DNA of 64,000 nt, taken from contig JAEMWC010000126.1 in assembly GCA_016490735.1 (NCBI GenBank), positions 1,197,501-1,261,500 on the forward strand. Reading direction: 5' to 3'. Position numbers and translations under genes: made by a program. This DNA is from Pachyseris speciosa (lineage: Eukaryota; Cnidaria; Anthozoa; Scleractinia; Pachyseridae). The notes under the pieces were generated by a model that did no database searches, was not told the DNA's origin, and saw nothing but the letters and a program-made list of their open reading frames with translations. Shown here in pieces: positions 14,266-41,262 of this stretch (position 1 is the stretch's first letter; every line of letters starts with the position of its first letter).

Positions 14266-14271
14266 GATTTT
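14266..14271. other. Target site duplication, left
   Basis: GATTTT immediately before the left terminal repeat; an identical hexamer follows the right terminal repeat at 41257-41262. Confidence 0.9.
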
Positions 14272-14338
14272 TACGGAGCCCCATAAGGGACATGCAACTT
14301 ATCGACTTGTTAAGATGTCGAAATGTCGAGATGTCGAG
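14272..14338 (+). repeat. Left terminal inverted repeat
   Basis: Starts TACGGAGCCCCATAAGGG, then CATGCAACTTATCGACTTGT, and runs into the 8-bp satellite. Compared with the right end only about three positions differ (A/T near 14290, T/C near 14311, T/C near 14318). Confidence 0.9.
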
Positions 14339-14650
14339 TTGTCGAGTTGTCGAGATCTCGAGTTGAGTAGTAGTGATGTCGAGATGTTGGGATGTGGAGT
14401 TGCGAGATGTCGAATTGTCGAAATGTCGAGATGTCGAGTTGTCGAGATGTCGAGTTGAGTAGTAATGATGTCGAGATGTTGGGATGTGGAGTTGCGAGTT
14501 GTCGAAATGTCGAGATGTCGAGTTGTCGAAATGTCGAGATGTCGAGATGTCGAGATGTCGAGTTGTCGAAATGTCGAGATGTCGAGTTGTCGAAATGTCG
14601 AGATGTCGAGATGTTGAATTGTTGAGTTGTCGAGATGTTGAGTTGTCGAG
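14314..14650 (+). repeat. 8-bp satellite, left end
   Basis: About 40 tandem copies of an 8-bp word, mostly ATGTCGAG or TTGTCGAG. A roughly 110-bp block is duplicated (GAGATGTTGGGATGTGGAGT occurs near 14380 and 14472). Because 8 is not a multiple of 3, translation gives an artefactual 8-residue repeat (SKCRDVEL). Mirrored at 41061-41210. Confidence 0.92.
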
Positions 14651-14826
14651 ACTTTTTGCTCAGAACGCTAACAGGTTTATTGCAGGCACATGAAAATGGT
14701 GTCATGAACAAGAAGCTCAAAATGGCGATAAAGGTCTTTAGAGTATCTCTTCTGTTAAGCTGTCTTTTCTTCAGCGCACAAGCGGTTCTTGAGAGATACC
14801 TACCTGTCCTTGAACAGCAGGCACTC

Positions 14827-15994
14827 ATGGAACGTGATCAACTGGTAGAAAGGTATTTTAACCTTGGTTTTACGCAGCGTGAAATCTGTGCCTTCCTTGT
14901 CCTCGCTCATGGAATCAGGATAAGCCTACGCCAGCTCAAAAGTATATTACAAAGACGAGGCTTAAGAAGAAGGGGACACCATACTGACTTCGGTTTGGTA
15001 ATTAGCGCAATCGAACAAGAAATGGAAGGAAGTGGTAGTGGTATTGGTTACCGTGCAATGTGGCAGCGACTAAGAAATGATCGAGGAATGGTGGTTAGTC
15101 GAGAAACAGTGCGGCACGCTTTGAGGATAATTGATCCCGAGGGAGTATCTGAGCGACTAAGACACAGGTTGAGGCGAAGGCAATATAGAGGCAAAGGACC
15201 GAACTTCCTGTGGCACATTGACGGTTATGACAAACTTAAACCCTTTGACGGTTTTGTGTTCACGGATGCATTGATGGGTTTAGTAGGCGAATTATGTGGC
15301 TTGGGGTTGGTTCTACGAATAGCGATTCGCGAGTTGTAGCAAGTTATTTTGTTGGCTGCGTTAGACAAGTTAGTGGTACGGCAACAGTAGTACGTGCTGA
15401 TTACGGAACAGAAAACGTGAAAGTAGCGGGTATCCAACGATTTTTTAGGCGTGACTCCAATGATTCTTTGTCAGGGAGCAAAAGCTTCATGTATGGCAAG
15501 TCTTCCTCGAATCAAAGGATTGAAGCCTGGTGGGCCAGCTGCGAAGAAATTGTGCGGAGTGGTGGATTAATCACTTCAAAGAGTTCAGAGATCTCGGTTT
15601 GTATTGTGATGGTCATGTCTTGCATGTGGAATGCTTGAAGTACTGCTATATGCGTTTGATACGAGACGAGCTTCAAAAAGCTGCTATTCAGTGGAACCTG
15701 CATCACATTAGACCTTCAACTAACCCTAATTCTCCCCCCGGAAGACCTGATACTTTGTATTTCCTACCATCTTTAACAGCGGAAGAAGTAAGAGATCATA
15801 AGTACCCTGTTGCCGATGATGACACCGATGTTGCTGAAGAGCTTTGCTGTTGTGACCCTCCGCCTGACTGCTTAGATTCATTTTCACAACTGGCTACAAT
15901 TATAATGAATGAACATGGACTTCATGAGCCTCAGACGCCAGAAGCAGCAAAGGAACTATATATCAAACTTTTGGATGCCATAGAGAACATATGA
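14827..15994 (+). pseudogene. IS3/integrase-like DDE transposase, two frameshifts
   Basis: About 389 residues if read through. The start chosen is ATG 14827 (MERDQLVERYF), because upstream codons from 14704 add a hydrophobic stretch unlike the rest. Residues 10-50 form a helix-turn-helix (GFTQREICAFL, then SLRQLKSILQRRGL). Residues 78-105 (GIGYRAMWQRL, then SRETVRHAL) resemble the second HTH of IS3 OrfB. The catalytic triad is visible: Asp in WHIDGYDKL (15220-15222), Asp in RADYGTENV (15399-15401), Glu in NQRIEAWW (15522-15524). The frame slips by one base near 15253 and again near 15530, each at a short T or G run, so three frames must be joined. The C-terminal 150 residues are intact to TGA 15992-15994. 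The protein would cut and join the element ends. Both slips could be assembly errors. Confidence 0.85.
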
Positions 15995-18275
15995 CCTCGA
16001 TCGTCTCACGAGGCATCTTTCTACTTAGTGTTTGAAATTTGTGTAATGAAACTGATGTGGCCATTGTAATTGGACTAATTGGTGCTATGAGCAAAAATGC
16101 TACCATTCACAAATGTTCTTCAGTTAAATGTTACAGTCCGTTCTTAAACCCTTATGCAGTTAATATAGTTTCTTACGTCCACCTGATTGAGGATTTGCCT
16201 TTATGTAATGCGGCAAGTGTGTAATAAATGAAGGTTGTTGTTTTATAGTAAATTGCCCTTGATTTTCCTGTTGATCAAAGTGGCTTGGGTGTGAAATCGC
16301 AAATATCCAGATTTCTTGTTTTCCATGAAAAATTGTCATCAGAATTGAATGCTGCTACACAAGGGATCTTTGCTACAACAAATGTACTAATCATACCTTG
16401 GCATACTAAGGAGTTTTTCGAAGGGATGGAATACGTTACAGTATGTCACACAACTGAAGACAGTTCTTGGTAAATCTGGAAAGCATATGAAGGAGAGCCT
16501 TCTTCGTATCTTGAACGAACCGCAACCACGAGCACTGAAAGCCCGCAATCTCCCCGCAAGTCAATTAAAACAATCTACTGATTCTTAGACGAAAATTATG
16601 AATTTCATTTCAACAGGAACAGTCTTTTAACTTTACATTCTATATTTACCCAAAACGTCAATTAATAAATACTTTACACTTGCTCCCTGCAAACACCCTC
16701 CCATTAATGATGACATACAGTGTTTGAATGCCTCAGGGGTCATGTGATGTGACAATAAATTTAATTTTACAAGGTAACTGGTGGGAACAAGGCTGACTGT
16801 CAAACCGAACAACAAAACAATAGTAGACGGTATTTCACTTGATATACCATTGGTAAAAGCTGATTGCTTCGAAATACAAAACCCTGACCAAAATTATTTC
16901 TTGGTGGATTGTGCGTCCTGTTCGTGCTATACATATCCTTCTGTGAACTTTACGGATGGACTAATCCACCGGCTGTACTACGTGAAAATCAACGCCGTTA
17001 AGAATTGGAAGAGGACAAATGCCTTCCTTCCAGTTCTCAAGAAGTGTACATTATGTCCAACTGGACAGAATATTAATCTTCGAAGCAAAAAGCCCCTAAG
17101 TAAATACCAGAAACACAACTTGCGACTCGTGGTAGGCAAGTCATCCCTTCCACTCTCCAAACGGAACGGAGCTTATGAAGGTACAGTCTATAACCAATAA
17201 AACTCTACAAAAAATATAAACGGTCTCCTCCCGGCTGAAGCCTCTAGCAGAGCATTTTGATTTGAGCATTTTTGTATGTTCCAGCGACGTATTTTAAACA
17301 GTCCAAGTAGATATCAACGGACGAAACTCTTCACAGACTGGGCAGTCATCCCTACCACCAAAAATTTCTTAAAACGATACGAGACTGGTCGCAAGAAATA
17401 CAACAACTAAACCAACATCCCGCAGTGCATTGACGACGGCTACCTCAAAAACTAGGATAGCTCACCTTTTTTAAAAATAGAAATATGTCAGTGAGCATCG
17501 TTTGCTCTACATGACTTTGTGCTATTCATGTGCTAAGTACTTATAGCAACAAAAAAACCCTCCTAGGTCCTTGATATTATTCTATCTGGCGCACATTCAA
17601 GAATGGGAAAATGTTAATTAGTCGAATAATTGAGCTACTTGTAACTCTATCACCAAATAATTGCTTATGGAATAGAAGTAAGACAGGTAATGATATTCAC
17701 TGCTCATTGTAACAAACCATTAGACTTTTAGGACAGGTCACAAGAATAACAAGGCCAGGATATAAAAGGCCACTAAGTTACTGTTAACTTTTTTAAACTT
17801 CAGAGCTGAATTTGACAGTATCTAAAACAAGTCAGTGGCGATTTAGCAACAAATTCGAGACTGCATTTACATATATTCCCTTATAGCACATGCAGCCGGA
17901 ATTGTGGATGTCTACAAATTAGGAAACTTAAGCAACAACCACTGTACTTGTACTCTTTTTCAGAGGACAAGAAAAATGTCTTAAAATAAAATCCTTTGCA
18001 GTAATTATTGTACGGCAATGTTCTCGTTCCCTTTAGAGGCAAAGTTGCTTTTGGTTTCTAGAATGAACGTGCGTAACTACAGTGATAATGTAACATTAAG
18101 GGATTGGTATATAGAAGTTTGAAAACAGATGTATCCCTTGTTGATCATACAACAATTAATATAAGAAATAAACAAGGTCCTGTCGTCAATCCAAAGCTCG
18201 TCGCTGTCCGCCATGTTTGGTAACAAGTACGCGATGAATTGAGCCTGCGGGACAAATGTCAGCGGCCTCCCGAAA
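15995..18275. other. Left-arm segment between transposase and array
   Basis: A/T-rich region of 2.3 kb unique to the left arm. Apart from one open frame at 16781-17200 it shows no recognisable gene. A short frame at 16285-16473 has protein-like composition but no motif. It may hold transposase 3' UTR and remains of a second gene. Confidence 0.5.
16781..17200 (+). CDS. Hypothetical Cys-containing protein fragment
   Basis: Open for 139 codons with no ATG anywhere in frame, so it would need to be an internal or terminal exon or a remnant. It has a Cys-rich patch (DCASCSCYTYP, then KKCTLCPTG) and a basic C-terminus (LRSKKPLSKYQKHNLRL), ending at TAA. The two Cys pairs could suggest a metal site, but no family is recognised. 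It lies in the left arm of the giant transposon, 0.8 kb after the transposase and on the same strand, so it might be a second element gene. It could also be an older captured piece. Confidence 0.3.
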   Translation: MGTRLTVKPNNKTIVDGISLDIPLVKADCFEIQNPDQNYFLVDCASCSCYTYPSVNFTDGLIHRLYYVKINAVKNWKRTNAFLPVLKKCTLCPTGQNINLRSKKPLSKYQKHNLRLVVGKSSLPLSKRNGAYEGTVYNQ

Positions 18276-18350
18276 CATCCCGGTAACTACGTAGTGTAAC
18301 TATCATATACTGGTTTACCGTGGTGACATATGGTGTGGCAAGTATTAGTG
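18276..18350 (+). repeat. Array junction sequence, left copy
   Basis: Contains TACGTAGTGTAACTATCAT and TGGTTTACCGTGGT just before the left array. The inverse is found at 40996-41060 next to the right array (TACGTAGTGTAAGTATCAT, TGGTTTACCGTGGT). This shows that the two arrays are arms of one inverted structure and not independent insertions. Confidence 0.85.
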
Positions 18351-21300
18351 GCATGCATGGACATACATGGGTATACATTACCATACAAAGTCATACACGG
18401 ACATACATAGCCATACATGAGCGTACACAGGAATACACAAGTATACATGGACATACATGGGTATACATGGCCATACACGGGCGTACACGGCCATACACGG
18501 GCATACATGGCCATACACAAGTATACCAGGCCATACACAGACATACATGGCTATACACGGGCATACATGGGGATACACAAGTATACATGGCCATACACAG
18601 ACATACCTGGCCATACACGGGCATACATGGCCATACACGGGCGTACACGGCTATACACGGGCATACATGGCCATACACAAGTATACATGGCCATACACGG
18701 ACATACATGGCTATACACGGGCATACATGGGGATACACAAGTATACATGGCCATACACAGGCATACCTGGCCATACACGGGCACACAGGGCCATAAACGG
18801 GCGTACACGGCTATACACGGGCATACATGGCCATACACAAGTATACATGGCCATACACGGACATACATGGCTATACACGGGCATACATGGGGATACACAA
18901 GTATACATGGCCATACACAGACATACATGGCTATACACGGGCATACATGGCCATACACAAGTATACATGGCCATACACGGACATACATGGCTATACACGG
19001 GCATACACGGGGATACACAAGTATACATGGCCATACACAGACATACCTGGCCATACACGGGCATACATGGCCATACACGGGCGTACACGGCTATACACGG
19101 GCATACATGGCCATACACAAGTATACATGGCCATACACGGACATACATGGCTATACACGGGCATACATGGGGATACACAAGTATACATGGCCATACACAG
19201 GCATACCTGGCCATACACAGGCATACATGCCCATACACGGGCGTACACGGCTACACACGGGCATACATGGCCATACACAAGTATACATGGCCATACACGG
19301 ACATACATGGCTATACACGGGCATACATGGGGATACACAAGTATACATGGCCATACACAGACATACCTGGCCATACACGGGCATACATGGCCATACACGG
19401 GCGTACACGGCTATACACGGGCATACATGGCTATACACGGGCATACATGGCCATACACAAGTATACATGGCCATCCACGGACATACATGGCTATACACGG
19501 GCATACATGGGGATACACAAGTATCAATGGCCATACACAGACATACCTGGCCATACACGGGCATACATGGCCATACACGGGCGTACACGCCTATACACGG
19601 GCATACATGCCTATACACGGGCATACATGGCCATACACAAGTATACATGGCCATACACGGACATACATGGCTATACACGGGCATACATGGGGATACACAA
19701 GTATACATGGCCATACACAGACATACCTGGCCATACACGGGCATACATGGCCATACATGGGCGTACACGGCTATACACGGGCATACATGGCTATACACGG
19801 GCATACATGGCCATACACAAGTATACATGGCCATACACGGACATACATGGCTATACACGGGCATACATGGGGATACACAAGTATACATGGCCATACACTG
19901 ACTTACCTGGCCATACACGGGCATACATGGCCATACACGGGCGTACACGGCTATACACGGGCACACATGGCCATACACAAGTATACATGGCCATACACGG
20001 ACATACATGGCTATACACGGGCATACATGGCGATAGACAAGTATACATGGCCATACACAGACATACCTGGCCATACACGGGCATACATGGCCATACACGG
20101 GCGTACACGGCTATACACGGGCATACATGGCCACACACAAGTATACATGGCCATACACGGACATACATGGCTATACACGGGCATAAATGGGGATACACAA
20201 GTATACATGGCCATACACAGACATACCTGGCCATACACGGGCATACATGGCCATACACGGGCGTACACGGCTATACACGGGCATACATGGCCATACACAA
20301 GTATACATGGCCATACACGGACATACATGGCTATACACGGGCATACATGGGGATACACAAGTATACATGGCCATACACACACATACCTGGCCATACAAGG
20401 GAATACATGGCCATACACGGGCGTACACGGCTATACACGGGCATACATGGCCATACACAAGTATACATGGCCATACACGGACATACATGGCCATACACGG
20501 GCATACATGGCCATACACGGGCGTACACGGCTATACACGGGCATACATGGCCATACACAAGTATACATGGCCATACACGGACATACATGGCTATACACGG
20601 GCATACATGGGATACACAAGTATACATGGCCATACACAGACATACCTGGCCATACACAGGCATACATGGCCATACACGGGCGTACACGGCTACACACGGG
20701 CATACATGGCCATACACAAGTATACATGGCCATACACGGACATACATGGCTATACACGGGCATACATGGGGATACACAAGTATACATGGCCATACACAGA
20801 CATACCTGGCCATACACGGGCATACATGGCCATACACGGGCGTACACGGCTATACACGGGCATACATGGCTATACACGGGCATACATGGCCATACACAAG
20901 TATACATGGCCATACACGGACATACATGGCTATACACGGGCATACATGGGGATACACAAGTATACATGGCCATACACAGACATACCTGGCCATACACGGG
21001 CATACATGGCCATACATGGGCGTACACGGCTATACACGGGCATACATGGCTATACACGGGCATACATGGCCATACACAAGTATACATGGCCATCCACGGA
21101 CATACATGGCTATACACGGGCATACATGGGGATACACAAGTATCAATGGCCATACACAGACATACCTGGCCATACACGGGCATACATGGCCATACATGGG
21201 CGTACACGGCTATACACGGGCATACATGGCTATACACGGGCATACATGGCCATACACAAGTATACATGGCCATACACGGACATACATGGCTATACACGGG

Positions 21301-24300
21301 CATACATGGGGATACACAAGTATACATGGCCATACACTGACATACCTGGCCATACACGGGCATACATGGCCATACACGGGCGTACACGGCTATACACGGG
21401 CATACATGGCCATACACAAGTATACATGGCCATACACGGACATACATGGCTATACACGGGCATACATGGGGATACACAAGTATACATGGCCATACACAGA
21501 CATACCTGGCCATACAAGGGAATACATGGCCATACACGGGCGTACACGGCTATACACGGGCATACATGGCCATACACAAGTATACATGGCCATACACGGA
21601 CATACATGGCTATACACGGGCATACATGGGGATACACAAGTATACATGGCCATACACAGACATACCTGGCCATACACGGGCATCCATGGCCATACACGGG
21701 CGTACACGGCTATACACGCGCATACATGGCCATACACAAGTATACATGGCCATACACGGACATACATGGCTATACACGGGCATACATGGGGATACACAAG
21801 TATACATGGCCATACACTGACATACCTGGCCATACACGGGCATACATGGCCATACACGGGCGTACACGGCTATACACGGGCATACATGGCCATACACAAG
21901 TATACATGGCCATACACGGACATACATGGCTATACACGGGCATACATGGGGATACACAAGTATACATGGCCATACACAGACATACCTGGCCATACAAGGG
22001 AATACATGGCCATACACGGGCGTACACGGCTATACACGGGCATACATGGCCATACACAAGTATACATGGCCATACACGGACATACATGGCTATACACGGG
22101 CATACATGGGGATACACAAGTATACATGGCCATACACAGACATACCTGGCCATACACGGGCATCCATGGCCATACACGGGCGTACACGGCTATACACGCG
22201 CATACATGGCCATACACAAGTATACATGGCCATACACGGACATACATGGCTATACACGGGCATACATGGGGATACACAAGTATACATGGCCATACACAGA
22301 CATACCTGGCCATACACGGGCATACATGGCCATACACGGGCGTACACGGTATACACGGGCATACATGGCCATACACAATATACATGGCCATAAACGGACA
22401 TACATGGCTATACACGGGCATACATGGGGATACACAAGTATACATGGCCATACACAGACATACCTGGCCATACACGGGCATACATGGCCATACACGGGCG
22501 TACACGGCTATACACGGGCATACATCGCCATACACAAGTATACATGGCCATACACGGACATACATGGCTATACACGGGCATACATGGGGATACACAAGTA
22601 TACATGGCCATACAGAGACATACCTGGCCATACACGGGCATACATGGCCATACACGGGCGTACACGGCTATACACGGGCATACATGGCCATACACAAGTA
22701 TACATGGCCTTACACAGACATACCTGGCTATACACGGGCATACATGGGATACACAAGTATACATGGCCATACACAGACATACCTGGCATTACACGGGCAT
22801 ACATGGCCATACATGGGCGTACACGGCTACACACGGGCATACATGGCCATACACAAGTATACATGGCCATACACGGACATACATGGCTATACACGGGCAT
22901 ACATGGGGATACACAAGTATACATGGCCATACACAGACATACCTGGCCATACACGGGCATACATGGCCATACACGGGCGTACACGGCTATACACGGGCAT
23001 ACATGGCCATACACAAGTATACATGGCCATACACGGACATACATGGCTATACACGGGCATACATGGGGATACACAAGTATACATGGCCATACACAGACAT
23101 ACCTGGGCATACACGGGCATACATGGCCATACACGGGCGTACACGGCTATACACGGGCATACATGGCCATACACAAGTATACATGGCCATACACGGACAT
23201 ACATGGCTATACACGGGCATAAATGGGGATACACAAGTATACATGGCCATACACAGATATACCTGGCCATACGCGGGCATACATGGCCATACACGGGCGT
23301 ACACGGCTATACACGGGCATACATGGCCATACACAAGTATACATGGCCATACACGGACATACATGGCTATACACGGGCATACATGGGGATACACAAGTAT
23401 ACATGGCCATACACAGACATACCTGGCCATACACGGGCATACATGGCCATACACGGGCGTACACGGCTATACACGGGCATACATGGCCATACACAAGTAT
23501 ACATGGCCATACACGGACATACATGGCTATACACGGGCATACATGGGGATACACAAGTATACATGGCCATGCACAGACATACCTGGCCATACACGGGCAT
23601 ACATGGCCATACACGGGCGTACACGGCTATACACGGGCATACATGGCTATATACGGGCATACATGGCCATACACAAGTATACATGGCCATACACGGACAT
23701 ACATGGCTATACACGGGCATACATGGGGATACACAAGTATACGTGGCCATACACAGACATACCTGGCCATACACGGGCATACATGGCCATACACGGGCGT
23801 ACACGGCTATACACGGCCATACATGGCTATACATGGGCATACATGGCCATACACAAGTATACATGGCCATACACGGACATACATGGCTATACACGGGCAT
23901 ACATGGGGATACACAAGTATACATGGCCATACACAGACATACCTGGCCATACACGGGCATACATGGCCATACACGGGCGTACATGGCTATACACGGGCAT
24001 ACATGGCCATACACAAGTATACATGGCCATACACGGACATACATGGCTATACACGGGCATACATGGGGATACACAAGTATACCTGGCCATACACGGGCAT
24101 ACATGGCCATACACGGGCGTACACGGCTATACACGGCCATACATGGCTATACATGGGCATACATGGCCATACACAAGTATACATGGCCATACACGGACAT
24201 ACATGGCTATACACGGGCATACATGGGGATACACAAGTATACATGGCCATACACAGACATACCTGGCCATACACGGGCATACATGGCCATACACGGGCGT

Positions 24301-26313
24301 ACACGGCTATACACGGGAATACATGGCTATACACGGGCATACATGGCCATACAACAGTATACATGGCCTCACACGGACATACATGGCTATACACGGGCAT
24401 ACATGGGGATACACAAGTATACATGGCCATACACAGACATACCTGGCCATACACGGGCATACATGGCCATACACGGGCGTACACGGCTATACACGGGCAT
24501 ACATGGCTATAGACGGGCATACATGGCCATACACAAGTATACATGGCCATACACGGACATACATGGCTATACACGGGCATACATGGGGATACACAAGTAT
24601 ACATGGCCATACACAGACATACCTGGCCATACACGGGCATACATGGCTATACACGGGCATAAATGGGGATACACAAGTATACATGGCCATACACAGACAT
24701 ACCTGGCCATACACGGGCATACATGGCCATACACGGGCGTACACGGCTATACACGGGCATACATGGCCATACACAAGTATACATGGCCATACACGGACAT
24801 ACATGGCTATACACGGGCATACATGGGGATACACAAGTATACATGGCCATACACAGACATACCTGGCCATACACAGGCATACATGGCCATACACGGGCGT
24901 ACACGGCTATACACGGGCATACATGGCCATACACAAGTATACATGGCCATACACGGACATACATGGCTATACACGGGCATACATGGGGATACACAAGTAT
25001 ACGTGGCCATACACAGACATACCTGGCCATACACGGGCATACATGGCCATACACGGGCGTACACGGCTATACACGGCCATACATGGCTATACATGGGCAT
25101 ACATGGCCATACACAAGTATACATGGCCATACACGGACATACATGGCTATACACGGGCATACATGGGGATACACAAGTATACATGGCCATACACAGACAT
25201 ACCTGGCCATACACGGGCATACATGGCCATACACGGGCGTACACGGCTATACACGGGCATACATGGCTATACACGGGCATACATGGCCATACACAAGTAT
25301 ACATGGCCATACACGGACATACATGGCTATACACGGGCATACATGGTGATACACAAGTATACATGGCCATACACAGACATACCTGGCCATACACGGGCAT
25401 ACATGGCTATACACGGGCATACATGGGGATACACAAGTATACATGGCCATACACAAGTATACATGAACATACACGGGTATACACGGGCGTACACAGGTAT
25501 AAACGGACATACACGGCTATACACGGGCATACATGGCCATACACAAGTATACATGGACGCACACGGGCGTACATGGGTATACACGAGCATACACGGCTGT
25601 ACACAGGCATACATTGGCATACATGGCCATACACGGACATACATGGCTATACACGGGCATACATTGCCATACACTGGCGTACACGGCTATACACGGGCAT
25701 ACATGGCCATACACAAGTATACGTGAACATACACGGGTATACACGGGCGTACACAGGTATACAGGGACAAACACGGCTATACACGGGCATACATGGCCAT
25801 ACACATGTATACATGGACGTACACGGGTATACACGGGCGTACACAGGCATACACGGACATACACGGCTATACACGGGCATACATGGCCATACACAAGTAT
25901 ACATGGCCATACACGGCGTATGCACGGACATACTTGGGTATACATGGCCATACACGGGCGTACACGGCTATACACGGGCATACATGGCCATACACAAGTA
26001 TACGTCAACATACACGGGTATACACGGGCGTACACAGGTATACACGGACATACACGGCTATACACGGGCATACATGGCCATACACAAGTATACATGGACG
26101 TACACGGGTATACCGGGCGTACACAGTGATACACGGACATACACGGCTATACACGGGCATACATGGCCATACACAAGTATACATGGCCATACACGGTTGT
26201 ACATGGGTGTACACGGAGATACATGGCTATACATAGGCATACATGGCCATAGACGGGTATACAGGATAGACTGTTGTACATGGCTATCCACGGCATACTT
26301 GGCCAAACACGGG
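18351..26313 (+). repeat. 20-bp satellite array, left arm (160-bp higher-order repeat)
   Basis: About 400 tandem copies of a 20-bp unit with consensus CCATACACGGGCATACATGG. Each unit is itself two related 10-mers of form NNATACANGG, so the base period is 10 bp. Units of distinct types recur in a fixed order of eight, giving a 160-bp higher-order repeat over most of the array; some copies carry one extra 20-bp unit (180 bp). Diagnostic units include GGATACACAAGTATACATGG and CCATACACAGACATACCTGG, once per 160 bp. Larger duplications are evident: variant words CATCCATGG and CACGCGCATAC recur 480 bp apart (about 21682/22162 and 21717/22197). The last 900 bp (after about 25440) are more disordered. 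The array is stop-free in all frames by composition and is not called as coding. Confidence 0.95.
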
Positions 26314-27835: not shown

Positions 27836-27906
27836 TTTCAAGCAGAACACTCAAGTTTCAAAAATAAAGGTACGACTCACATGTTGTAAACGTAAAGCAG
27901 AAAATT

Positions 27907-29106: not shown

Positions 29107-29640
29107 TTACGAAGTAAATAAGTAAGTAAGACTTTATTTAACGAGGGTAACATATAACAGTAATAAAACTGATAAACTAATGGCCCTCGAAAATTAAAAT
29201 TTGAGAAAGAAAACACAAACCTATATACATCATAAATATTGTTAAAAATTAACAATTTACAGGAATAATTTACTAAGAATTTGATTATCTAAAATTATTT
29301 TAAGAAGGGAACGCTTAAAACTGTTTACACTGGTACTCTGCGAAAAGAATTACGGGAACGTAAAGGTAGAGAAGCCATTTTCAGATCTAAAATGCACTGG
29401 ATCAAAAACGACGAGAGTCCAACTATAATTATTTCTTTAATCCTGAGAAAATCAGTAACTCATTAACGTGAGAAAGACGTTTTTATCTCAAATCACAACT
29501 TATTGCTGGGAATGAGGAAACAGTACTGACAGATATAAGTAATTAATAAAGAAATCGAATAGTGATTCTTTCCAGAACTCTACAAGATAGTTTCGAAGAA
29601 AATTTTCACTGAAGTGTTAACTTACAATATAAAAGTCAAT
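29107..29640 (-). mobile_element. Possible LINE 3' region, minus strand
   Basis: On the minus strand the segment ends with CTCGTTAAATAAAGTCTTAC followed by TTAC repeats, the usual form of a LINE 3' end with a short tandem tail. The upstream 500 bp are A/T-rich and carry no RT motif that I can read. A poly-C run lies just beyond, at about 29670-29683. Confidence 0.35.
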
Positions 29641-30010
29641 GAAATATCGCCTTAGGAAGTTGATCCAGGCCCCCCCCCCCCCTCCCCACATTTTGTGAAA
29701 AAAATAATAAATAAAGTAAAAGACTGTATCATATGAACTCTTGTTGTTAGGCCATCGTAGCTTGATTAAGATAAAACACAAACAATGCATTAAAAGTATA
29801 TAAACAGTTTTCAAAAATTGTATCGGTAACTTTTTAAAATGTATGTTGCCCAGCATACGAAACGTCAAGTCTATATAAAATGCGTTGGTTTACCATGTTT
29901 ATCTCCGCTGTTTGTGTTTTGTTTTTAATCAAAGTAAAAGACATATATAAAAAAGTACTTTCACGGGATAACAGTGCTTGGCTAAAGGTGGTGGACACTG
30001 TCGCACAATT

Positions 30011-31074
30011 CATACACTTAGTTGAAGTCTTCTGTTTGTGAAGTAAAATGGGGTTGACAGACCAACGCGACTCCTGGTGTGTGCCCATTGTGTAAAGCAA
30101 ACATATCTTTAAGCGATTTTCCTTTTTTATAAGAAATCAAGGGAGGTTCCTTGAATATCTCTTTGAGTAATGGTTGCTCTTGTATTAGATGCCATTTGTC
30201 CATTAGTATGTTTTACAAACATGGTAACGATTCTTGAAATTGCTTCACGAACGGGGTAGAAGCTCCCCCAATTTGAAGTGAGGGGAGGTTACTAACTCTA
30301 AAAATATTTAAAATGCATATCATTCCGTTTAATTCATAAGATTTGTCCAGAAGTTGACATATTTTATTAACTCAAAAAAATCAAGTGATATCCTTTTCTA
30401 CACTTTTCAACTCGATTCATGCATTTAGAGAAGGGGGTTAGTGACAAAATAAACTTTGTAAACACAGTTAACGAAATCTGTAACAGAAGGTAGAGTAATC
30501 ATAACTTTGGTTCATTTATTCGTTAACTGTCACAAAATCGGATTCTCTGAATGTACCGGAAATTCCTTTTTTGATTGTCGCAACGACCAAAAAAGCATTT
30601 GCCAGTTCAGTAAGACAGAGTTTGTCTGTTCTGTCTTTGTAAGTGTTTAGTACTGTAAGATTAATGAGCCTTTTTTGAATCTTTTCTTTCTTCAAGAGCT
30701 ACTAAAACTCGACTTATGTCTAAAAGTTACCCTGAGAAAATGGTCGAACAGATACTCTCAGAAGTTAACTACGCGGACAGACAGAAAAACAGCTCTAACA
30801 CAGAAACAGAGAATGCACAAGAAACTGCCACCTCCGTGACGCAATTTCAGACATCGTTAACATGTTTGGACACAATGGCTTTTAATACAAGAACAACCAT
30901 TACTCAGAAAGATATTCAAGGAACCTCCCTTGATTTCTTATAGAAAAGGTAAATCGCATAAAGATATACATCTTCAGTAAAGGCCGTGAACAACACAATG
31001 AGCACGCAGCAGGAGTCGCGTCGGTCTGTCAACCCCATTTTGATCACCGACAGTGGACTACAACTAAGTGTATG
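30011..31074. pseudogene. Inverted pair of Penelope-like element fragments
   Basis: Two arms, 30011-30178 and 30892-31074, are inverted copies of each other (CATACACTTAGTTG at one end, CAACTAAGTGTATG at the other; GGGGTTGACAGACC inside). The left arm read on the minus strand (30018-30203) encodes LKEIFKEPPLISYKKGKSL and onward. This resembles the linker between reverse transcriptase and the GIY-YIG nuclease domain of Penelope-like retroelements (family knowledge, moderate recognition). The right arm encodes the start of the same segment and then a stop. The 710 bp between the arms hold no recognisable gene. Confidence 0.5.
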
Positions 31075-31248
31075 ATGTGTAAAGATAGTCAGTTTTAAAA
31101 TTTATTCCATCAGACGGGATCGAAAGGAGCCAATCATAAATTTTGAAAAATGCAATTTCAAGTTACGTTCTAGAATGGCCGTTTGCCCCTACAAAGGACT
31201 GGATCTACCCACAATTCACCAAGAACTAATCATTAGCAAAATGGCGTA

Positions 31249-31410
31249 ATCACACTCCCTGACGACAGTGAAACAATCAGATCTCAATTCGCACATGATA
31301 CCACTCTAATAGTCAACGACACTGAATCATTAACTGCAGACATCTCGGTTATAAATTCCTCCAGCATACTCTCAGGGTTAAAATTGAACCAAAAGAAACC
31401 CAAGGCGTTA
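31249..31410 (+). pseudogene. LINE reverse-transcriptase fragment
   Basis: Open frame reading ITLPDDSETIRSQFAHDTTL, then SVINSSSILSGLKLNQKKPK. The RT catalytic box FADD has become FAHD, losing an essential metal-binding Asp. The frame is cut at 31411 by the start of an LTR, so the LINE was the target of a later LTR-element insertion. Confidence 0.7.
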
Positions 31411-31522
31411 TGTGTCTCGCTTTGTGATTTATTAAACGTGTTCCAATATAGCGGCTACATACATTCAGCGCTAGTTACATAACAATAAGCACGTGACGTG
31501 GTAAACACGTGATACTGTGACA
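31411..31522 (-). repeat. Gypsy-type LTR (3' LTR)
   Basis: A 112-bp segment that on the minus strand runs from TGTCACAGTATCACGTG to GAGACACA, with AATAAA about 20 bp before its end. It is preceded on that strand by the purine tract GAAAGCGGGA (31523-31532). A TG...CA LTR directly after a polypurine tract identifies it as the 3' LTR of the minus-strand Gypsy element whose pol remains lie at 32151-34251. No matching 5' LTR is seen. Confidence 0.7.
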
Positions 31523-31590
31523 TCCCGCTTTCAATAAAAAAGGAAGAACGGCAAACACCATTTTTTTTAGCTTTCTAAAAGTTCATGCTT

Positions 31591-32036
31591 CAGGGGCACC
31601 CAACGAGCTAAATCAACCAAAAGATGTAGAAAGGAATTTTTAAGTACCTTGTGGTGTTTGAAGTTTGTTTGAAGTGATGTTTTCATAAGCTAGAAAAAGT
31701 TCATCTGTTCGGATTCCCTAGCTGAAAGTTTACTTTCCCGAAAATGTTAGGGAACAAAATCTTTCTTTGAGAAAATGCAAGCTGAAATGAACTTTCGACG
31801 ACCTTTCTAGGGAGCTATTTTCTTTCCGAAAATGCTAGCTGACGTTTTTGACTGCCAAAAACAGCAATTACGATCTTTCCGAAAACCTCAGGGGTTATGA
31901 TTTCCCAATTGCGAATCTTTTAGGTCACGTTTTAGTTACGAAAATCCGAGTTCCCTCTTTAATCGACGCCGAAAACCAAGGCGAATTACCCTCCACCGAA
32001 CAGATATCGACCGAAACTTGTCGTTGGGTGCCCCTG
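31591..32036 (+). mobile_element. CAGGGGCACCCAACG element, copy B
   Basis: 446 bp with ends CAGGGGCACCCAACGA and TCGTTGGGTGCCCCTG and an exact 6-bp duplication ATGCTT (31585-31590, 32037-32042). It sits between the Gypsy integrase remnant and its 3' LTR, hence inserted after the Gypsy element. It is non-coding and homologous to copy A in reverse orientation. Confidence 0.9.
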
Positions 32037-32150
32037 ATGCTTAATCGATGTCTTTAAAGTGTGTATCAAAACTGCAACTTGTTTAAAGTGGTTATTCAAT
32101 TAACGGTTCTCTGCAACTAACAAATGAACGTTCCTCAAGTTCTTTAATGT

Positions 32151-34251
32151 CTAAATGCTGTTTGTCTTGGAGGGCTTTGGAGTATTTGCAGGGGAACTAG
32201 CTTCTATACTGTCTCTTGCTGGCTGAACAGTTCCATTCCCAGGTCTTGATGGTGGTATGACAACTTTAGGGACTGCCATCAGGGGTGGATGTTGCGTATG
32301 GGGTGTCACATGGTCCGGCCTGAGGTGTGATCTTGTACACCGGTACACACCTGCTGTTTTGCTGTTCATAACTATATACGACCTTGGTGCTTTTGCTGTT
32401 CTCACAACAGTGCCTGGTTCCCATGTCTTGGTTTGGTGATCGAGGATTCTTATTGGCTGGCCTGGATGGAGTGGTTCTAGGGTTGGCCGTGCCTTAAGAT
32501 TAAAATAGTGGCCTTGCTGCTCTTGTTGTCGTTGTAACTGTTCCCTAACTTGTGCTGAATCATCTGGAAGGTTTGCACGGTGGGACATAAGTAACAGTGT
32601 TCTGAACTTTCTCTTTGTTAGCAGCTCTGCTGGTGATTCCAGGTGGTGGTAGAGGGGTGTTGCTCTGTATGATAGTAGTTCTCGAGTATGTATGTATGTA
32701 TGTAGTAGTTCTCGAGTATGTATGTTCGAGTATGTTATCGAGTATGTTCTTCATTGTCTGTACAATGCGTTCCGAAGATCCATTGGCTTGCGGATAAAGT
32801 GGGGAACTGGCGATGTGCTCTATTCCATAAGAGGTGGTAAAATCTGCGAATTCCTTTGCACTGTACTTTGGACCATTGTCAGTTACTAACTGACTGGAGA
32901 TGCCGTACTCTGCGTATATGCTCCTAAGATGAGTGATAATGGCTGCGGAGGTCGTGCTTGAAACCTTTCGGATGGCTGGAAACTTGCTATACTGGTCTGA
33001 GACAAGGAGGTACTGGTGGCCCTTGAAGTCGAACAAATCAGAGTTTAACCTTTCCCAATGGTAACTTGGTTGTTCTGGCTGGAGAATTGGTTCTTTCTGT
33101 TGCTGGTGTTGGTGTCTGGCAAGGATTACACTATTGCACGAGACTGATGACAACTTTGGTGATGCCTGGCCAGAAAACGCAGGCTCTGGCTCGGAGCAGG
33201 CATTTCTCCTGACCCAGATACCCTTGATGAATGATTTCTAACATCTCCTGTCGAAGGGATGGCTGGATAACGATGCAATCACCCTTAAGTATTAACCCAT
33301 CTTCAATGGTTAACTCGTCTCGAAAGTTCCAGAAATCGTGCAATGCTTCTGGGCATTTTTCTCTCTTATATGGCCATCCTTTGTAATCCATCTCTTTCAG
33401 TTTGCTCATGGTGAAAATCATGGACCGTCTCTTCCCGAATCTGCTGCAGTCTCGCTGGCGATACAGTAAGCGACCTGGTGACATGGTGTATGTCAAACTG
33501 AGGTAGCTGGTTGTTGCCAGATGTCGGTTGTGGTGAGATTCTTGACAAGGCATCAGCAATAGGTACTTCAGCACCTGGCGTTGGGGTCGAAATATCTGAG
33601 CACACCGAGGGTGGACACTTCAGCTTTAACTGCATTAAATGCACGATCATGTTCTGGCCCGCACATATAGGCTACCTCTTTCTTAGTTAACTCACGGAGA
33701 GGAGCAGTAATGGTGGCTAGGGGGCCTGAGTACCGTGGGAGGTAGTTGACCAGGCCTAGGAAACTTTGAAGACTCTTGACATCTTCTGGGGATTGCATGT
33801 TTTGTATAGCTGAGAGTATCTATCTTACACTTTACTGGTGTGGTGTGCCTGTGGTATGGCTTGGCAGTTAGCTGCATTTCAACTATGGCTTTGTTACCAT
33901 GTCCTTCCGACTGGATATTATCAATCTCACCTGTACAGTTATTTGTGTCCTGACATTGTTCTGCAGTCAGAATCCCTAAGAAAACTCTTTCGTCAGGGTC
34001 TGCTTCGGTCGGTCGACCTGTTTGTACTCCTTTCCTTTGTGGCCTCTTTTCCCCCAATGCGGCTTACTTTTAGGCTTGTTTTTGCCTTTGCTCAATTCTC
34101 TTCTGCCTAGGGAATTAACTTGGATGTGGTTTGTCATGGCCTGTAATTGGAGTTTAGTAGGTTCCTCTGTACGCGCGATTTCACGAGCCTTCTGAAATGT
34201 TACTTTGTTTCCTCCGGCTATACATTTCGGTAATAACCAGAAGCAAAACAA
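32151..34251 (-). pseudogene. Ty3/Gypsy gag-pol remnant
   Basis: Minus-strand pieces in correct gag-to-integrase order. Gag C-terminus is at 33976-34251 (Lys-rich KGKNKPKSKPHWGKRGHKG). A protease start at 33830-33950 contains VKCKIDT and then breaks. The RT tail is at 33700-33798 (LQSFLGLVNYLPRYS), the RNase H end near 33550 (IADALSRI), the integrase zinc-binding region at 33131-33350 (HQGYLGQEKCLLRAR), and the integrase core at 32660-33080 (SDQYSKFPAI, LVTDNGPKY, PQANGSSER). The integrase C-terminus is at 32151-32588 (RILDHQTKTWEPGTV). Most of the protease and RT is deleted, with frameshifts near 32590 and others. A short TACA-type microsatellite has expanded just after the catalytic Glu region (about 32685-32740). 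The element cannot be active. Confidence 0.85.
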
Positions 34252-34720
34252 GATGAAGCCTCAGGATTTGACTGCCCACAAGAACCATGAAGTTTTCTCA
34301 GTAAATATCTCTCCCATGAAAAGGATGTTATACAATTATGTTATTTGCCGGCCTAAGTCGGTCCGTATTGGGAAAAACTGTGCCTGCAGCCTCGGGCCAT
34401 ACTCGAGACCGAAATGGACTTCACAACGCCAAACTTGCAATAATATTACTAAGCTACAACTTTGAAATTAAATTCGGATTTGTACTCAGTTGATTGTGTA
34501 TACTCGCCTTTTTCAGTAACTGTAACGATTTCAATCACACAACTTGTTTCTTCATCCACTTAACAACCATTCGTGGTTAATATAAACATCATTTACGCCA
34601 TTTTTGAGCTTTGACTTTGATGGAAATTCTCAATCGCTTCCAAGTTTAGCTAAATTAGCTTTAAAGTCGGCAGCGGTCCGTACTCGGGTTCCGGATGCGC
34701 ACTTTTCAAAGAAATGAACC
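34252..34720. other. Interior sequence before the right array
   Basis: No gene recognised. There is a CG-containing patch (CCTAAGTCGGTCC) and otherwise A/T-rich DNA; unique until the first 20-bp repeat at about 34721. Confidence 0.4.
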
Positions 34721-37700
34721 ATGAACGCCAGTGTATGACCAAATATGCCCGTGTATGGCCATGTATGCCCGTGCATAGCCATGTACAACAGTGTATGGCC
34801 ATGTATGCCCGTGTATACCCATGTAAGTGCGTGTATACCCGTGTACGCCGGTGTATGGCAATGTATACTTCTGTATGGCCGTGTATACCCGTGTACGCCC
34901 GTGTATGGCCATGTATACTTGTGTATGGCCATGTATGCCCGTGTATGCCCGTGTACGCCGGTGTATGGCCATGTATACCCGCTTATGTCCATGTATACTT
35001 GTGTATGGCTATGTATGCCAGTGTATACCCGTGTACGCCCGTGTATGGCTATGTATACCCGTATATGTCCATGTATACTTGTGTACGGCTATGAATGGCC
35101 GTGTACGCCCGTGTATGGCAATGTATGCCCGTGTATGGCCATGTATAGCCGTGTATGTCCATGTATACTTGTGTATGCCGTGTACGCCTGTGTATGCCCA
35201 TGTACGCCAATGTATGCCCGTGTATGGCCATGTATACTTGTGTATGGCCATGGACGCCCGTGTATAGCCGTGTACTCCCGTGTAAGGCCATGTATAGCCG
35301 TGTATGTCCGTGTATACTTGTGTATGGCCATGTATGCCCGTGTATAGCCGTGTACGCCCGCGTAAGGCCATGTATGTCCGTGTATGGCCATGTATGCCCG
35401 TGTATAGCCATGTACGCCCGTGTATGGCAATGTATGCCCGTGTATGGCCATGTATAGCCGTGTATGTCCATGTATACTTGTGTATGCCCGTGTACGCCTG
35501 AGTATCCCCATGTACGCCCATGTATACCCGTGTATGGCCATGTATGCCCGCGTATGGCCGTGTATAGCCGTGTATGTCCATGTAAACTTGTGTATGGCCA
35601 TATATGCCCGTGTATAGCCATGTATGTCCGTGTATGGCCATGTATACTTCTGTATGGCCATGTATGCCCGTGTATAGCCGTGTACGCCCGTGTATGGCCA
35701 TGTATACCCGTGTATGTCCGTGTATACTTGTGTATGGCCATGTATGCCCGTGTATAGCCGTGTACGCCCGTGTATGGCCATGTATACCCGTGTATGTCCG
35801 TGTATACTTGTGTATGGCCATGTATGCCCGTGTATAGCCGTGTAAGCCCGTGTATGGCCATGTATGTCCGTGTATGGCCATGTATGCCCGTGTATAGCCG
35901 TGTACGCCCGTGTATGGCCATGTATACCCGCGTATGTCCGTGTATACTTGTGTATGGCCATGTATGCCCGTGTATAGCCGTGTACGCCCGTGTATGGCCA
36001 TGTATGTCCGTGTATGGCCATGTATGCCAGTGTATAGCCGTGTACGCCCGTGTATGGCAATGTATGCCCGTCTATGGCCATGTATAGGCATGTATGTCCA
36101 TGTATACTTGTGTATGCCCGTGTACGCCTGTGTATGGCCACGTATACCCGTGTATGTCCGTGTATACTTGTGTATGGCCATGTATGCCCGTGTATAGCTG
36201 TGTACGCCCGTGTATGGCCATGTATGTCCGTGTATAGCCATGTATGCCAGTGTATAGCCGTGTACGCCCGTGTATGGTAATATATGCCCGTGTATGGCCA
36301 TGTATAGGCGTGTATGTCCATGTATACTTGTGTATGGTCATATATGCCCGTGTATAGCCATGTATGTCCGTGTATGGCCATGTATACTTGTGTATGGCCA
36401 TGTATGCCCGTGTATGGCCGTGTACGCCTGTGTATGGCCATGTATACCCGTGTATATCCGTGTATACTTGTGTATGGCCATGTATGCCCGTGTATAGCCG
36501 TGTACGCCCGTGTATAGCCATGTATGCCCGTGTATGGCCAGGTATGTCTGTGTATGGCCATATATACTTGTGTATCCCCATGTATGCCCGTGTATAGCCA
36601 TGTATGTCCGTGTATGGCCATGTATACTTGTGTATGGCCATGTATGCCCGTGTATAGCCGTGTACGCCCGTGTATGGCCATGTATGCCCGTGTATAGCCA
36701 TGTCTGTCCGTGTATGGCCATGTATACTTGTGTATGGCCATGTATGCCCGTGTATAGCCGTGTACGCCCATTTATGGCCATGTATACCCGTGTATGTCCG
36801 TGTATACTTGTGTATGGCCATGTATGCCCGTGTATAGCCGTCTACGCCCGTGTATGGCCATGTATGTCCGTGTATGGCAAGGTATGCCCGTGTATGGCCA
36901 TGTATAGCCGTGTATGTCCATGTATACTTGTGTATAGCCATATATGCGCGTGTATAGCCATGTATGTCTGTGTATGGCCATGTACACTTGTGTATGGCCA
37001 TGTATGCCCGTGTACGCCCGTGTATGGCCATTTATACCCGTGTATGTCCGTGTACACTTGTGTATGGCCATGTATGCCAGTGTATAGCCGTGTACGCCCG
37101 TGTATGGCAATGTATGCCCGTGTATGGCCATGTATAGGCGTGTATGTCCATGTATACTTGTGTATGCCCGTGTAGGCCTGTGTATGGCCATGTATACCCG
37201 TGTATGTCCCTGTATACTTGTGTATGGCCATGTATTCCTGTGTATAGCTGTGTACGCCCGTGTATGGCCATGTATGTCCGTGTATAGCCATGTATGCCAG
37301 TGTATAGCCGTGTACGCCCGTGTATGGCCATGTATGCCCGTGTATAGCCGTGTACGCCCGTGTATGGCCATGTACGCCCGTGTATGGCCATGTATGCCCG
37401 TGTATAGCCGTGTACGCCCGTGTATGGCCATGTATACCCGTGTATGTCCGTGTATACTTGTGTATGGCCATGTATGCCCGTGTATAGCCGTGTACGCCCG
37501 TGTATGGCCATGTATACCCGTGTATGTCCGTGTATACTTGTGTATGGCCATGTATGCCCGTGTATAGCCGTGTACGCCCGTGTATGGCCATGTATGTCCG
37601 TGTATGGCCATGTATGCCCGTGTATAGCCGTGTACGCCCGTGTATGGCCATGTAAACGCGTGTATGTCCGTGTATACTTGTGTATGGCCATGTATGCCCG

Positions 37701-40700
37701 TGTATAGCCGTGTACGTCCGTGTATGGCCATGTATAGCCGTGTATGTCCATGTATACTTGTGTATGGCCATATATGCCCGTGTATAGCCATGTATGTCTG
37801 TGTATGGCCATGGATACTTGTGTATGGCCATGTATGCCCGTGTATAGCCGTGTATACTTGTGTATGGCCATGTATGCCCGTGTATAGCCGTGTACGCCCG
37901 TGTATGGCCATGTATACCCGTGTATGTCCGTGTATACTTGTGTATGGCCATGTATGCCCGTGTATAGCCGTGTACGCCCGTGTATGGCCATGTATACCCG
38001 TGTATGTCCGTGTATACTTTTGTATGGCCATGTATGCCCGTGTATAGCCGTGTACGCCCGTGTATGGCCAGGTATACCCGTGTATGTCCGTGTATACTTG
38101 TGTATGGCCATGTATGCCCGTGTATAGCCGTGTACGCCCGTGTATGGCCATGTATGTCCGTGTATGGCCATGTATGCCCGTGTATAGCCGTGTACGCCCG
38201 TGTATGGCCATGTATAGCCGTGTATGGCCATGTATACTTGTGTATGGCCATATATGCCCGTGTATAGCCATATATGTCTATGTATGGCCATGTATACTTG
38301 TGTATGGCCATGTATGCCCCTGTACGCCCGTGTATGGCCATGTATGCCCGTGTATGTCCGTGTATACTTGTGTATGGCCATGTATGCCTGTGTATAGCCG
38401 TGTACGCCCGTGTATGGCCATGTATACCCGTGTATGTCCGTGTATACTTGTGTATGGCCATGTATGCCCGTGTATAGCCGTGTACGCCCGTGTATGGCCA
38501 TGTATGTCCGTGTATGGCCATGTATGCCCGTGTATAGCCGTGTACGCCCGTGTATGGCCATGTATACCCGTGTATGTCCGTGTATACTTGTGTATGGCCA
38601 TGTATGCCCGTGTATAGCCGTGTACGCCCGTGTATGGCCATGTATAGCCGTGTATGTCCATGTATACTTGTGTATGGCCATGTATGCCCTTGTATAGCCA
38701 TGTATGTCTGTGTATGGCCATGTATACTTGTGTATGGCCATATATGCCCGTTTATAGCCATGTATGTCTGTGTATGGCCATGTATACTTGTGTATGGCCA
38801 CGTATGCCCGTGTATAGCCGTGTACGCCCGTGTATGGCCATGTATGCCCGTGTATGTCCGTGTATACTTGTGTATGGCCATGTATGCCCGTGTATAGCCG
38901 TGTACGCCCGTGTATGGCCATGTATACTTGTTTATGGCCATGTATGCCCGTGTATAGCCGTGTACGCCCGTGTATGGCCATGTATGCCCGTGTATGTCCG
39001 TGTATACTTGTGTATAGCCATGTATGCCCGTGTATAGCCGTGTACGCCCGTGTATGGCCATGTATACCCGTGTATGTCCGTGTATACTTGTGTATGGCCA
39101 TGTATGCCCGTGTATAGCCGTGTACGCCCGTGTATGGCCATGTATACCCGTGTATGTCCGTGTATACTTTTGTATGGCCATGTATGCCCGTGTATAGCCG
39201 TGTACGCCCGTGTATGGCCATGTATGTCCGTGTATGGCCATGTATGCCCGTGTATAGCCGTGTACGCCCGTGTATGGCCATGTATACGCGTGTATGTCCG
39301 TGTATACTTGTGTATGGCCATGTATGCCCGTGTATAGCCGTGTTCGCCCGTGTATGGCGATGTATAGCCGTGTATGTCCATGTATACTTGTGTATGGCCA
39401 TATATGCCCGTGTATAGCCATGTATGTCTGTGTATGGCCATGTATACTTGTGTATGGCCATATATGCCCGTGTATAGCCATGTATGTCTGTGTATGGCCA
39501 TGTATACTTGTGTATGGCCATGTATGCCCGTGTCTAGCCGTGTACGCCCGTGTATGGCCATGTATACGCGTGTATGTCCGTGTATACTTGTGTATGGCCA
39601 TGTATGCCCGTGTATAGCCGTGTACGCCCGTGTATTGCCATGTATAGCCGTGTATGGCCATGTATACTTGTTTATGGCCATGTATGCCCGTGTATAGCCG
39701 TGTACGCCCGTGTATGGCCATGTATGCCCGTGTATGTCCGTGTATACTTGTGTATAGCCATGTATGCCCGTGTATAGCCGTGTACGCCCGTGTATGGCCA
39801 TGTATACCCGTGTATGTCCGTGTATACTTGTGTATGGCCATGTATGCCCGTGTATAGCCGTGTACGCCCGTGTATGGCCATGTATACCCGTGTATGTCCG
39901 TGTATACTTTTGTATGGCCATGTATGCCCGTGTATAGCCGTGTACGGCCATGTATGTCCGTGTATGGCCATGTATGCCCGTGTATAGCCGTGTACGCCCG
40001 TGTATGGCCATGTATACGCGTGTATGTCCGTGTATACTTGTGTATGGCCATGTATGCCCGTGTATAGCCGTGTTCGCCCGTGTATGGCGATGTATAGCCG
40101 TGTATGTCCATGTATACTTGTGTATGGCCATATATGCCCGTGTATAGCCATGTATGTCTGTGTATGGCCATGTATACTTGTGTATGGCCATATATGCCCG
40201 TGTATAGCCATGTATGTCTGTGTATGGCCATGTATACTTGTGTATGGCCATGTATGCCCGTGTCTAGCCGTGTACGCCCGTGTATGGCCATGTATACGCG
40301 TGTATGTCCGTGTATACTTGTGTATGGCCATGTATGCCCGTGTATAGCCGTGTACGCCCGTGTATTGCCATGTATAGCCGTGTATGGCCATGTATACTTG
40401 TGTATGGCCATGTATGCCCGTGTATAGCCATGTATGTCTGTGTATGTCCGTGTATACTTGTGTATGGCCATGTATGCCCGTGTATAGCCGTGTACGCCCG
40501 TGTATGGCCATGTATACCCGTGTATGTCCGTGTATGCTTGTGTATGGCCATGTATGACCGTGTATAGCCGTGTACGCCCGTGTATGGCCATGTATACCCG
40601 TGTATGTCCGTGTATACTTGTGTATGGCCATGTATGCCCGTGTATAGCCGTGTACGCCCGTGTATGGCCATGTATAGCCGTGTATGGCCATGTATACTTG

Positions 40701-40995
40701 TGTATGGCCATGTATGCCCGTGTATAGCCATGTATGTCTGTGTATGGCCATTTATACTTGTGTATGGCCATATATGCCCGTGTATAGCCATATATGTCTA
40801 TGTATGGCCATGTATAGTTGTGTATGGCCATCTATGCCCCTTTACGCCCGTGTATGGCCATGTATGCCCGTGTATGTCCGTGTATACTTGTGTATGGGTA
40901 TGTATGCCCGTGTATACTTGTGTATGGCTATGTATGCCTGTGTATGGCTGTGTACGCCCGTGTATGTATGGCCGTGTACACACATGTACTTTTAT
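34721..40995 (-). repeat. 20-bp satellite array, right arm (80-bp higher-order repeat)
   Basis: About 310 copies of the same 20-bp family as the left array but inverted: the plus strand reads CCATGTATGCCCGTGTATGG-type units. Units again decompose into 10-mers of the form TGTANNNCCN. The dominant higher-order period here is 80 bp, with 140-bp variants. A segment of about 730 bp is duplicated: rare words TGTTCGCCCG, TGTCTAGCCG and TGTATTGCCA occur at 39341/40071, 39531/40261 and 39631/40361, each 730 bp apart. Further left the offset is 740 (TTTATGGCCA at 38931/39671; TGTATACTTT at 39161/39901). Open frames here are composition artefacts. Confidence 0.95.
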
Positions 40996-41060
40996 GGCAC
41001 ACCGTACTAGACCACGGTAAACCACTATATGATACTTACACTACGTATCTACGAACATCC
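40996..41060 (-). repeat. Array junction sequence, right copy
   Basis: Inverse of 18276-18350. Here it connects the array directly to the 8-bp satellite, with no transposase segment between. Confidence 0.85.
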
Positions 41061-41210
41061 CGACAACTCGACATCTCGACATCTCGATAACTCGACAAGT
41101 CGACATCTCGATAACTCGACATCATCTCGACAACTCGACAACTCGACAAGTCGACATCTCGATAACTCGACATCTCGAAAACTCGACAACTCGACATCTC
41201 GACATTTCGG
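41061..41210 (-). repeat. 8-bp satellite, right end
   Basis: About 18 copies of CTCGACAT/CTCGACAA, with some TCGATAAC variants. It is the inverse of the left-end satellite but shorter (150 against 340 bp). Confidence 0.92.
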
Positions 41211-41256
41211 CATCTTGACAAGTCGATAAGTTGCATGACCCTTATGGGGCTCCGTA
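41190..41256 (-). repeat. Right terminal inverted repeat
   Basis: On the minus strand starts TACGGAGCCCCATAAGGG followed by TCATGCAACTTATCGACTTG, ending in the satellite. Immediately followed on the plus strand by the GATTTT duplication. Confidence 0.9.
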
Positions 41257-41262
41257 GATTTT
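41257..41262. other. Target site duplication, right
   Basis: GATTTT, identical to 14266-14271. Confidence 0.9.

Follow-up and report, generated by a model that had tools for sequence, protein, structure and literature searches.

IS3EU elements, a eukaryotic class of cut-and-paste transposons, are characterized by TAYGG..CCRTA ends, a 6-bp target duplication, terminal inverted repeats (TIRs) longer than 30 bp and a DDE transposase (PMC10045372, PMC12730594), and Styx, an IS3EU-related fungal element, carries extra genes besides its transposase (PMC10853768). Foldback elements with terminal repeats, some of them linked to satellites, are already known (PMC3688188, PMC4079207, PMC6446971, PMC10218199). 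The TIR repeats of Galileo bind the DNA-binding domain of the Galileo transposase (PMC3688188); Tetris is apparently non-autonomous, is flanked by duplications of 8-10 bp and seeded a satellite (PMC4079207); and Rehavkus-1_TC measures 9.5 kb (PMC10218199, PMC6446971). Target duplications of about 8-11 bp have been reported for the Mutator/MULE groups (PMC6446971). Units of hundreds of kilobases between foldback elements are also known, and DNA transposition is said to become less efficient the farther apart the ends lie (review, PMC6431247). These sources are cited from excerpts.

Our study concerns a locus in a 64,000-nucleotide stretch of Pachyseris speciosa DNA, which as a whole is called the window. 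A preliminary description had read 27 kb of it as a single transposon of an IS3-like eukaryotic class, the bulk of which would be its own satellite DNA. Our analysis makes it very likely that the locus consists of two nested cut-and-paste transposons, the inner of which has satellite arms and, in some copies, a transposase-like gene. The features of the locus are collected in Table 1.

Table 1. Coordinates of the outer and inner elements and their parts in the window
Feature	Position	Strand	Remarks
Outer target duplication GATTTT, left	14266..14271
Outer IS3EU-type TIR, left	14272..14338	+	64/67 match
8-bp satellite of outer element, left	14313..14651	+	common to six other paired copies
Outer transposase gene (PF24764)	14722..15994	+	D-D-E motifs kept; broken over three frames
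Inner target duplication AACATCCC, left	18274..18281
Inner giant foldback element	18282..41053		22,772 bp
Conserved terminal block of inner element, left	18282..18370	+
20-bp satellite, left arm	18392..26313	+	best period 160
Remnant, first 42 bp of DUF6729/DDE transposase-like gene	26318..26359	-	100% over 42 bp
Third-level insertion(s)	26724..28536		absent from C559 and C5
Interior common, in pieces, to other family copies	28537..34718		~96.6-99.6%
Decayed Ty3/gypsy-like pol within shared interior	32151..34260	-	integrase core, H2C2
20-bp satellite, right arm	34719..40966	-	best period 80
Conserved terminal block of inner element, right	40970..41053	-
Inner target duplication AACATCCC, right	41054..41061
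8-bp satellite of outer element, right	41055..41226	-	common to six other paired copies
Outer IS3EU-type TIR, right	41190..41256	-	64/67 match
Outer target duplication GATTTT, right	41257..41262

A foldback element nested in an IS3EU-type element

The outer ends start with TACGGAGCCCCATAAGGG, and their termini, TACGG..CCGTA, fit the TA..TA and TAYGG..CCRTA form of IS3EU. Scanning the window for TAYGG..CCRTA pairs with ends 0.1-40 kb apart gave 11,573 pairs, among which the GATTTT-flanked one was the only pair with exact 6-bp flanks and also had the best-matching TIRs (29/30). The preliminary description had reported GATTTT on both sides, ends matching over about 67 bp, and an 8-bp and a 20-bp satellite mirrored at both ends; all of these are present, and the 64 of 67 identical TIR positions exceed the 30 bp expected of IS3EU. 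Its assignment to the IS3-like eukaryotic class also agrees with the ends and 6-bp duplication of the outer element and with the transposase domain.

What that description missed is a second mirrored block of non-satellite sequence, which lies outside each 20-bp array and adjoins a second pair of target duplications. The order in the window is AACATCCC, 22,772 bp and AACATCCC repeated, while the other outer copies run uninterrupted through AACATCCCGACAAC. Using this 14-mer as an anchor, we compared the joined flanks of the inner block with loci L011, L012, L013, L015, L016 and L017, where 80, 82, 88, 85, 85 and 86 of 89 bp agree, respectively, and with L020, where 79 of 89 bp do. Because the other outer copies lack this single 22,772-bp block, the 20-bp arrays and the second mirrored block belong to a different element: the 8-bp satellite is that of the outer element, which measures 4205 bp once the inner block is subtracted, and the 20-bp satellite is that of the inner one. 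A giant satellite-rich transposon does exist here, nested within a short one. First, an IS3EU-type element of 4.2 kb, which has 8-bp satellites within its ends, would have integrated and duplicated GATTTT; the giant foldback element would later have integrated immediately ahead of the right-hand 8-bp satellite of the outer element, producing the AACATCCC duplication.

The outer element and its family

The preliminary description placed a DDE transposase near the left end; a gene with the PF24764 integrase core does lie there, but it is broken over three frames. It matches 961 proteins, the best with 86% identity, and the organisms named among the 120 matches listed are the stony corals Montipora, Acropora and Porites. 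The PF24764 integrase core and these homologues point to a possible place in the IS3EU clade. When nine copies or pieces of the outer family were inspected for the motifs, no frame as long as that of the 423-aa relative was seen; the longest were one of 391 aa (C529) and one of 322 aa with all three markers (C63).

In the whole genome (983.7 Mb), the terminal 32-mer of the outer element occurs at 18 places, nine per strand, compared with none for the control. These places form seven pairs, that of the window and six others, plus four lone ends. The window pair spans 26,985 bp and the others 4157, 4157, 4175, 4549, 5426 and 9451 bp. An exact 6-bp duplication flanks five of the seven pairs, the window included; of the remaining two, the pair on C529 shares 5 bp and that on C1191 none. 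The search for further ends with 6-bp duplications, proposed in the preliminary description, thus yielded six more pairs, four of them exactly flanked, and in these homologues the ends belong to short elements, which contradicts its reading of one element. In tandem-repeat scans, each of the six other pairs had the 8-bp satellite at its two ends, and none had the 20-bp satellite. The 9451-bp copy on C1191 (L012), with two ends and no matching 6-bp flanks, is perhaps a chimera.

Directly to the left of the outer insertion site, at 13789-14242, lies a dispersed repeat, about 450 bp long, that matches 39 other scored places at 79-85%. Among 40 scored of 1406 candidates, the left flank beyond this repeat was matched only by the window itself, and none of the 40 represented an empty allele of the outer insertion. 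A search of genome_contigs gave two distant loci in a sponge-symbiont record, with no paired TAYGG..CCRTA ends, and the viral_contigs searches led nowhere. Elsewhere in the window, we observed three open frames in the right flank (42517-43083, 43545-45923 and 46472-47152), which resemble pieces of LINE and BEL/Pao-type retroelements; a 252-bp tandem duplication at 49303-49856 (2.2 copies, 98%); and an interstitial TTAGGG telomere-like array at 58549-58704, with about 25 units and also an 18-bp period.

The inner foldback family and its satellite arms

The inner element is one member of a family with conserved ends of about 85 bp, which have the form GGTAAGTACGTAGTG...CACTACGTATCTACG. The left end block matches at 88-100% in 40 scored of 112 first-look candidates, and the right one at 87-100% in 40 scored of 134. 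Genome-wide, a 22-mer core of the end has 72 + 64 = 136 matches, and its control has none. At least 29 convergent pairs are present among the 100 of these 136 places that were listed: two span 626 bp, 26 lie in the range 8.9-26.9 kb and one reaches 60.6 kb; the median is 17.2 kb. The 40 scored matches of each end block supplied seven further pairs of 8.1-20.2 kb, which, together with 27 of the former (the two 626-bp copies omitted), make up the 34 intervals that we tabulated; 33 of them span 8.1-26.9 kb. Exact 8-bp duplications, all different, were found in 13 of the 16 pairs checked, one pair matches at 7 of 8 positions and two have no duplication. The two 626-bp copies are flanked by CTAATCGC, an 8-bp duplication, and contain satellite in a single direction only; they are identical including their flanks (801/801), so they may represent one duplicated locus. 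The 60.6-kb pair on C537 (L027 and L040), which is flanked by an exact 8-bp duplication, contains the DUF6729/DDE gene described below.

The 20-bp satellite adjoins the end block in all 12 left ends fetched. In C325 the left arm is about 2.6 kb long and the right arm about 2.5 kb; these lengths are about 3.6 and 2.0 kb in C413 and 8.0 and 6.3 kb in the window. The two arms of C413 mirror each other at their inner ends as well, which means that the arms there are complete inverted repeats; the left arm of the window stops slightly short of the corresponding point. An ungapped comparison of 14 copies shows that identity falls inward, with medians of 0.989 over the first 90 bp (minimum 0.944; 91 pairs), 0.936 over the next 110 bp and 0.777 over the next 130 bp. 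Between the left arms of C325 and C413 the shared fractions of 30-mers are 0.34 and 0.45, compared with 0.08 and 0.07 between these arms and the right arm of C325; being far more alike to each other than either is to that right arm, they indicate that arm content is partly inherited. For the left arm of the window, 30-mer sharing is higher with the right arm of the same copy (0.54) than with the left arms of C325 (0.37) and C413 (0.32), so exchange or evening-out within a copy also occurs. Full colinearity of the two arrays of the window was discarded as proof, since the 16-mers that occur once in each are unaligned (rank correlation 0.21). The left satellite also contains an uninterrupted frame of 2631 aa at 18421-26316, with long frames in the other reading frames as well; the unit is probably just free of stops, and the idea of a gene in this frame was dropped, with a single weak protein match for a 300-aa piece.

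Interior of the inner element and its candidate transposase

Interiors were read whole in the window, C325 and C413, and in part in C17, C559 and C5. The stretches they share are mostly 96-99.6% identical, with one in C5 at 90%, and a decayed gypsy-like pol is among them. About two thirds of the third-level insertion of the window is a high-copy dispersed repeat present at 39 other scored places at 97-99%, and the C17 interior holds an insertion, about 11.7 kb long, that is unrelated. A MITE-like repeat that starts with CAGGGGCACCCAACGA is present in two inverted copies, at 27906-28367 and 31589-32037. Six-frame domain scans of the window, C325 and C413 interiors gave no transposase other than that of gypsy type. 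Matches to the C325 reverse transcriptase (40 scored of 4192 candidates) fall in paired intervals in 13 cases, less than 30 kb from a lone end in 17 and in neither setting in 10. Integrases of the gypsy class make target duplications shorter than 8 bp, and for this reason, and because the gene is decayed, the gypsy integrase was rejected as the mover of the inner family.

Among the six interiors, only that of C559 contains more than a scrap of another gene. It is a 464-aa frame (L059:4737-6128), antisense and just inside the left arm, with a DUF6729 domain (E 3e-6) and a break near its 3' part. Of its 59 homologues, the longer ones have 775-812 aa and several contain an OTU domain; those with an organism named come from the anthozoans Oculina, Desmophyllum and Paramuricea. 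Across 24 homologues, two D residues never vary and an E downstream of them is conserved at 90% or more, and these may be the catalytic residues of a DDE-like core. Domain matches in the 24 comprise DUF6729 (12), OTU (11), MULE (two, best E 0.0047), Transposase_mut (one, 8e-4) and DDE_Tnp_ISL3 (one, 0.0041), the Mutator-type E values being weak; the profile of the homologues also matches OTUD3 (E 0.0013). Together with the 8-bp duplications, these weak Pfam signals suggest a distant relative of Mutator. When the genome was searched with the MULE family, 150 of 205 candidates were scored; the search yielded 45 matches, none of them inside the 34 intervals.

The gene itself has 23 matches genome-wide. 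Ten cover most or all of it (at least 1337 bp, 98-100%), seven of these inside paired intervals and three less than 20 kb from a lone end; the shorter ones comprise three at 98-99% over 197 bp and four at 90-100% over 42-50 bp. In total, 13 of the 17 matches at or above 90% lie in paired intervals and four within 20 kb of a lone end. Because all 17 are in or near elements of the family, we take the DUF6729/DDE protein to be the putative transposase of the inner family. Six matches of about 150 bp at 69-70% (C276, C672, C3, C704, C1592 and C643), none inside the intervals, suggest that related elements exist outside the family. Most likely, a DUF6729-DDE-OTU transposase would cut at the GGTAAG and CTACG ends and insert with an 8-bp stagger. 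Copies that lack the gene, such as that of the window, would have been moved in trans, and the repeated arms may bring the distant ends together, either through many binding sites or through pairing, by analogy with Galileo.

Alternative explanations

The exact GATTTT duplication and the 64/67 TIRs are what a single 27-kb IS3EU transposon, its bulk made of its own satellite DNA, would also display. This reading is extremely improbable, given that the six other pairs span 4.2-9.5 kb without the 20-bp satellite and that the extra DNA, a 22.8-kb element, has its own 8-bp duplication and its own family. Satellite arrays of this kind are difficult to assemble, and an assembly artefact might produce such an arrangement; the same architecture at 13 loci, each with a different exact 8-bp duplication, reduces the probability of this explanation to almost nothing.

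Within the nested arrangement, it is also conceivable that the inner element inserted with short arms, which lengthened in place afterwards, so that no 20-kb element ever moved. We regard this as rather doubtful, yet as the most serious of the alternatives: arm length varies from 2.0 to 8.0 kb across C325, C413 and the window, the best periods of the two window arms differ, identity between copies declines inward (medians from 0.989 through 0.936 to 0.777), the content of the window arms has been homogenized within the copy (0.54 versus 0.37 and 0.32) and two 626-bp copies exist. However, 34 of 36 end pairs, counting those of 626 bp, are more than 8 kb apart, and the content of the C325 and C413 left arms is partly inherited (0.34 and 0.45 versus 0.08 and 0.07). 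Less probable than growth in place is that the DUF6729/DDE gene is a passenger and that another transposase moves the inner family. Several copies do lack the gene, a decayed gypsy pol is carried as well and the Mutator signal is weak, but the confinement of the gene at 90% identity or more to the family or its vicinity (17/17), together with the invariance of two D residues and the near-invariance of an E, makes a passenger role unlikely and speaks for the gene as the source of the transposase.

Comparison with known systems

It is important to note that foldback elements are known and that the inner family is an unusual variant of them, as arms this long occurring this often are unusual. A limited search of open-access text did not find a family combining kilobase arms of short-unit satellite, more than 100 ends and this gene, and no paper on DUF6729, a domain of unknown function, was found in the literature searched. 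We tentatively consider the possibility that the inner family is a distinct lineage, with a DUF6729-DDE-OTU protein and 8-bp duplications, in which the kilobase-long satellite arms function as parts of the ends, allow elements of 10-25 kb to transpose at high copy number and have scattered complete satellite arrays across a genome. Its paired ends are mostly 8-27 kb apart despite the reported length penalty, which makes it a natural system for asking whether arms compensate for distance. The family also offers a means of distributing satellite DNA over many places on the chromosomes, and through it DUF6729 becomes tied to a mobile element.

The outer element resembles IS3EU, as described in the excerpts, in its ends, 6-bp duplication, TIR length and DDE transposase, and differs from it in the 8-bp satellite just within both ends and, in the window copy, in the 22.8-kb insertion. 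The inner element has the foldback structure, in which tandem repeats compose long inverted repeats. The TU elements of sea urchins likewise have long inverted termini with tandem repeats, although they are much smaller. Galileo and Tetris of Drosophila, according to the same excerpts, share with the inner element long inverted repeats with internal tandem repeats; however, Galileo has TIRs of more than 1 kb and belongs to the P superfamily, whereas the inner element has arms of 2.0-8.0 kb of 20-bp units (three copies) and a DUF6729/DDE gene, and Pfam scans of this gene and 24 relatives gave no THAP or P-element transposase. Rehavkus, which is Mutator-related, is described as having satellite in its inverted termini, as does the inner element (PMC10218199, PMC6446971), but its duplications are of 9 bp and those of the inner element of 8 bp, and no PHD finger, a Rehavkus feature, was detected in the 24 members at E 0.01. 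With an 8-bp duplication, exact in 13 of 16 pairs, the inner element falls within the range reported for the Mutator/MULE groups.
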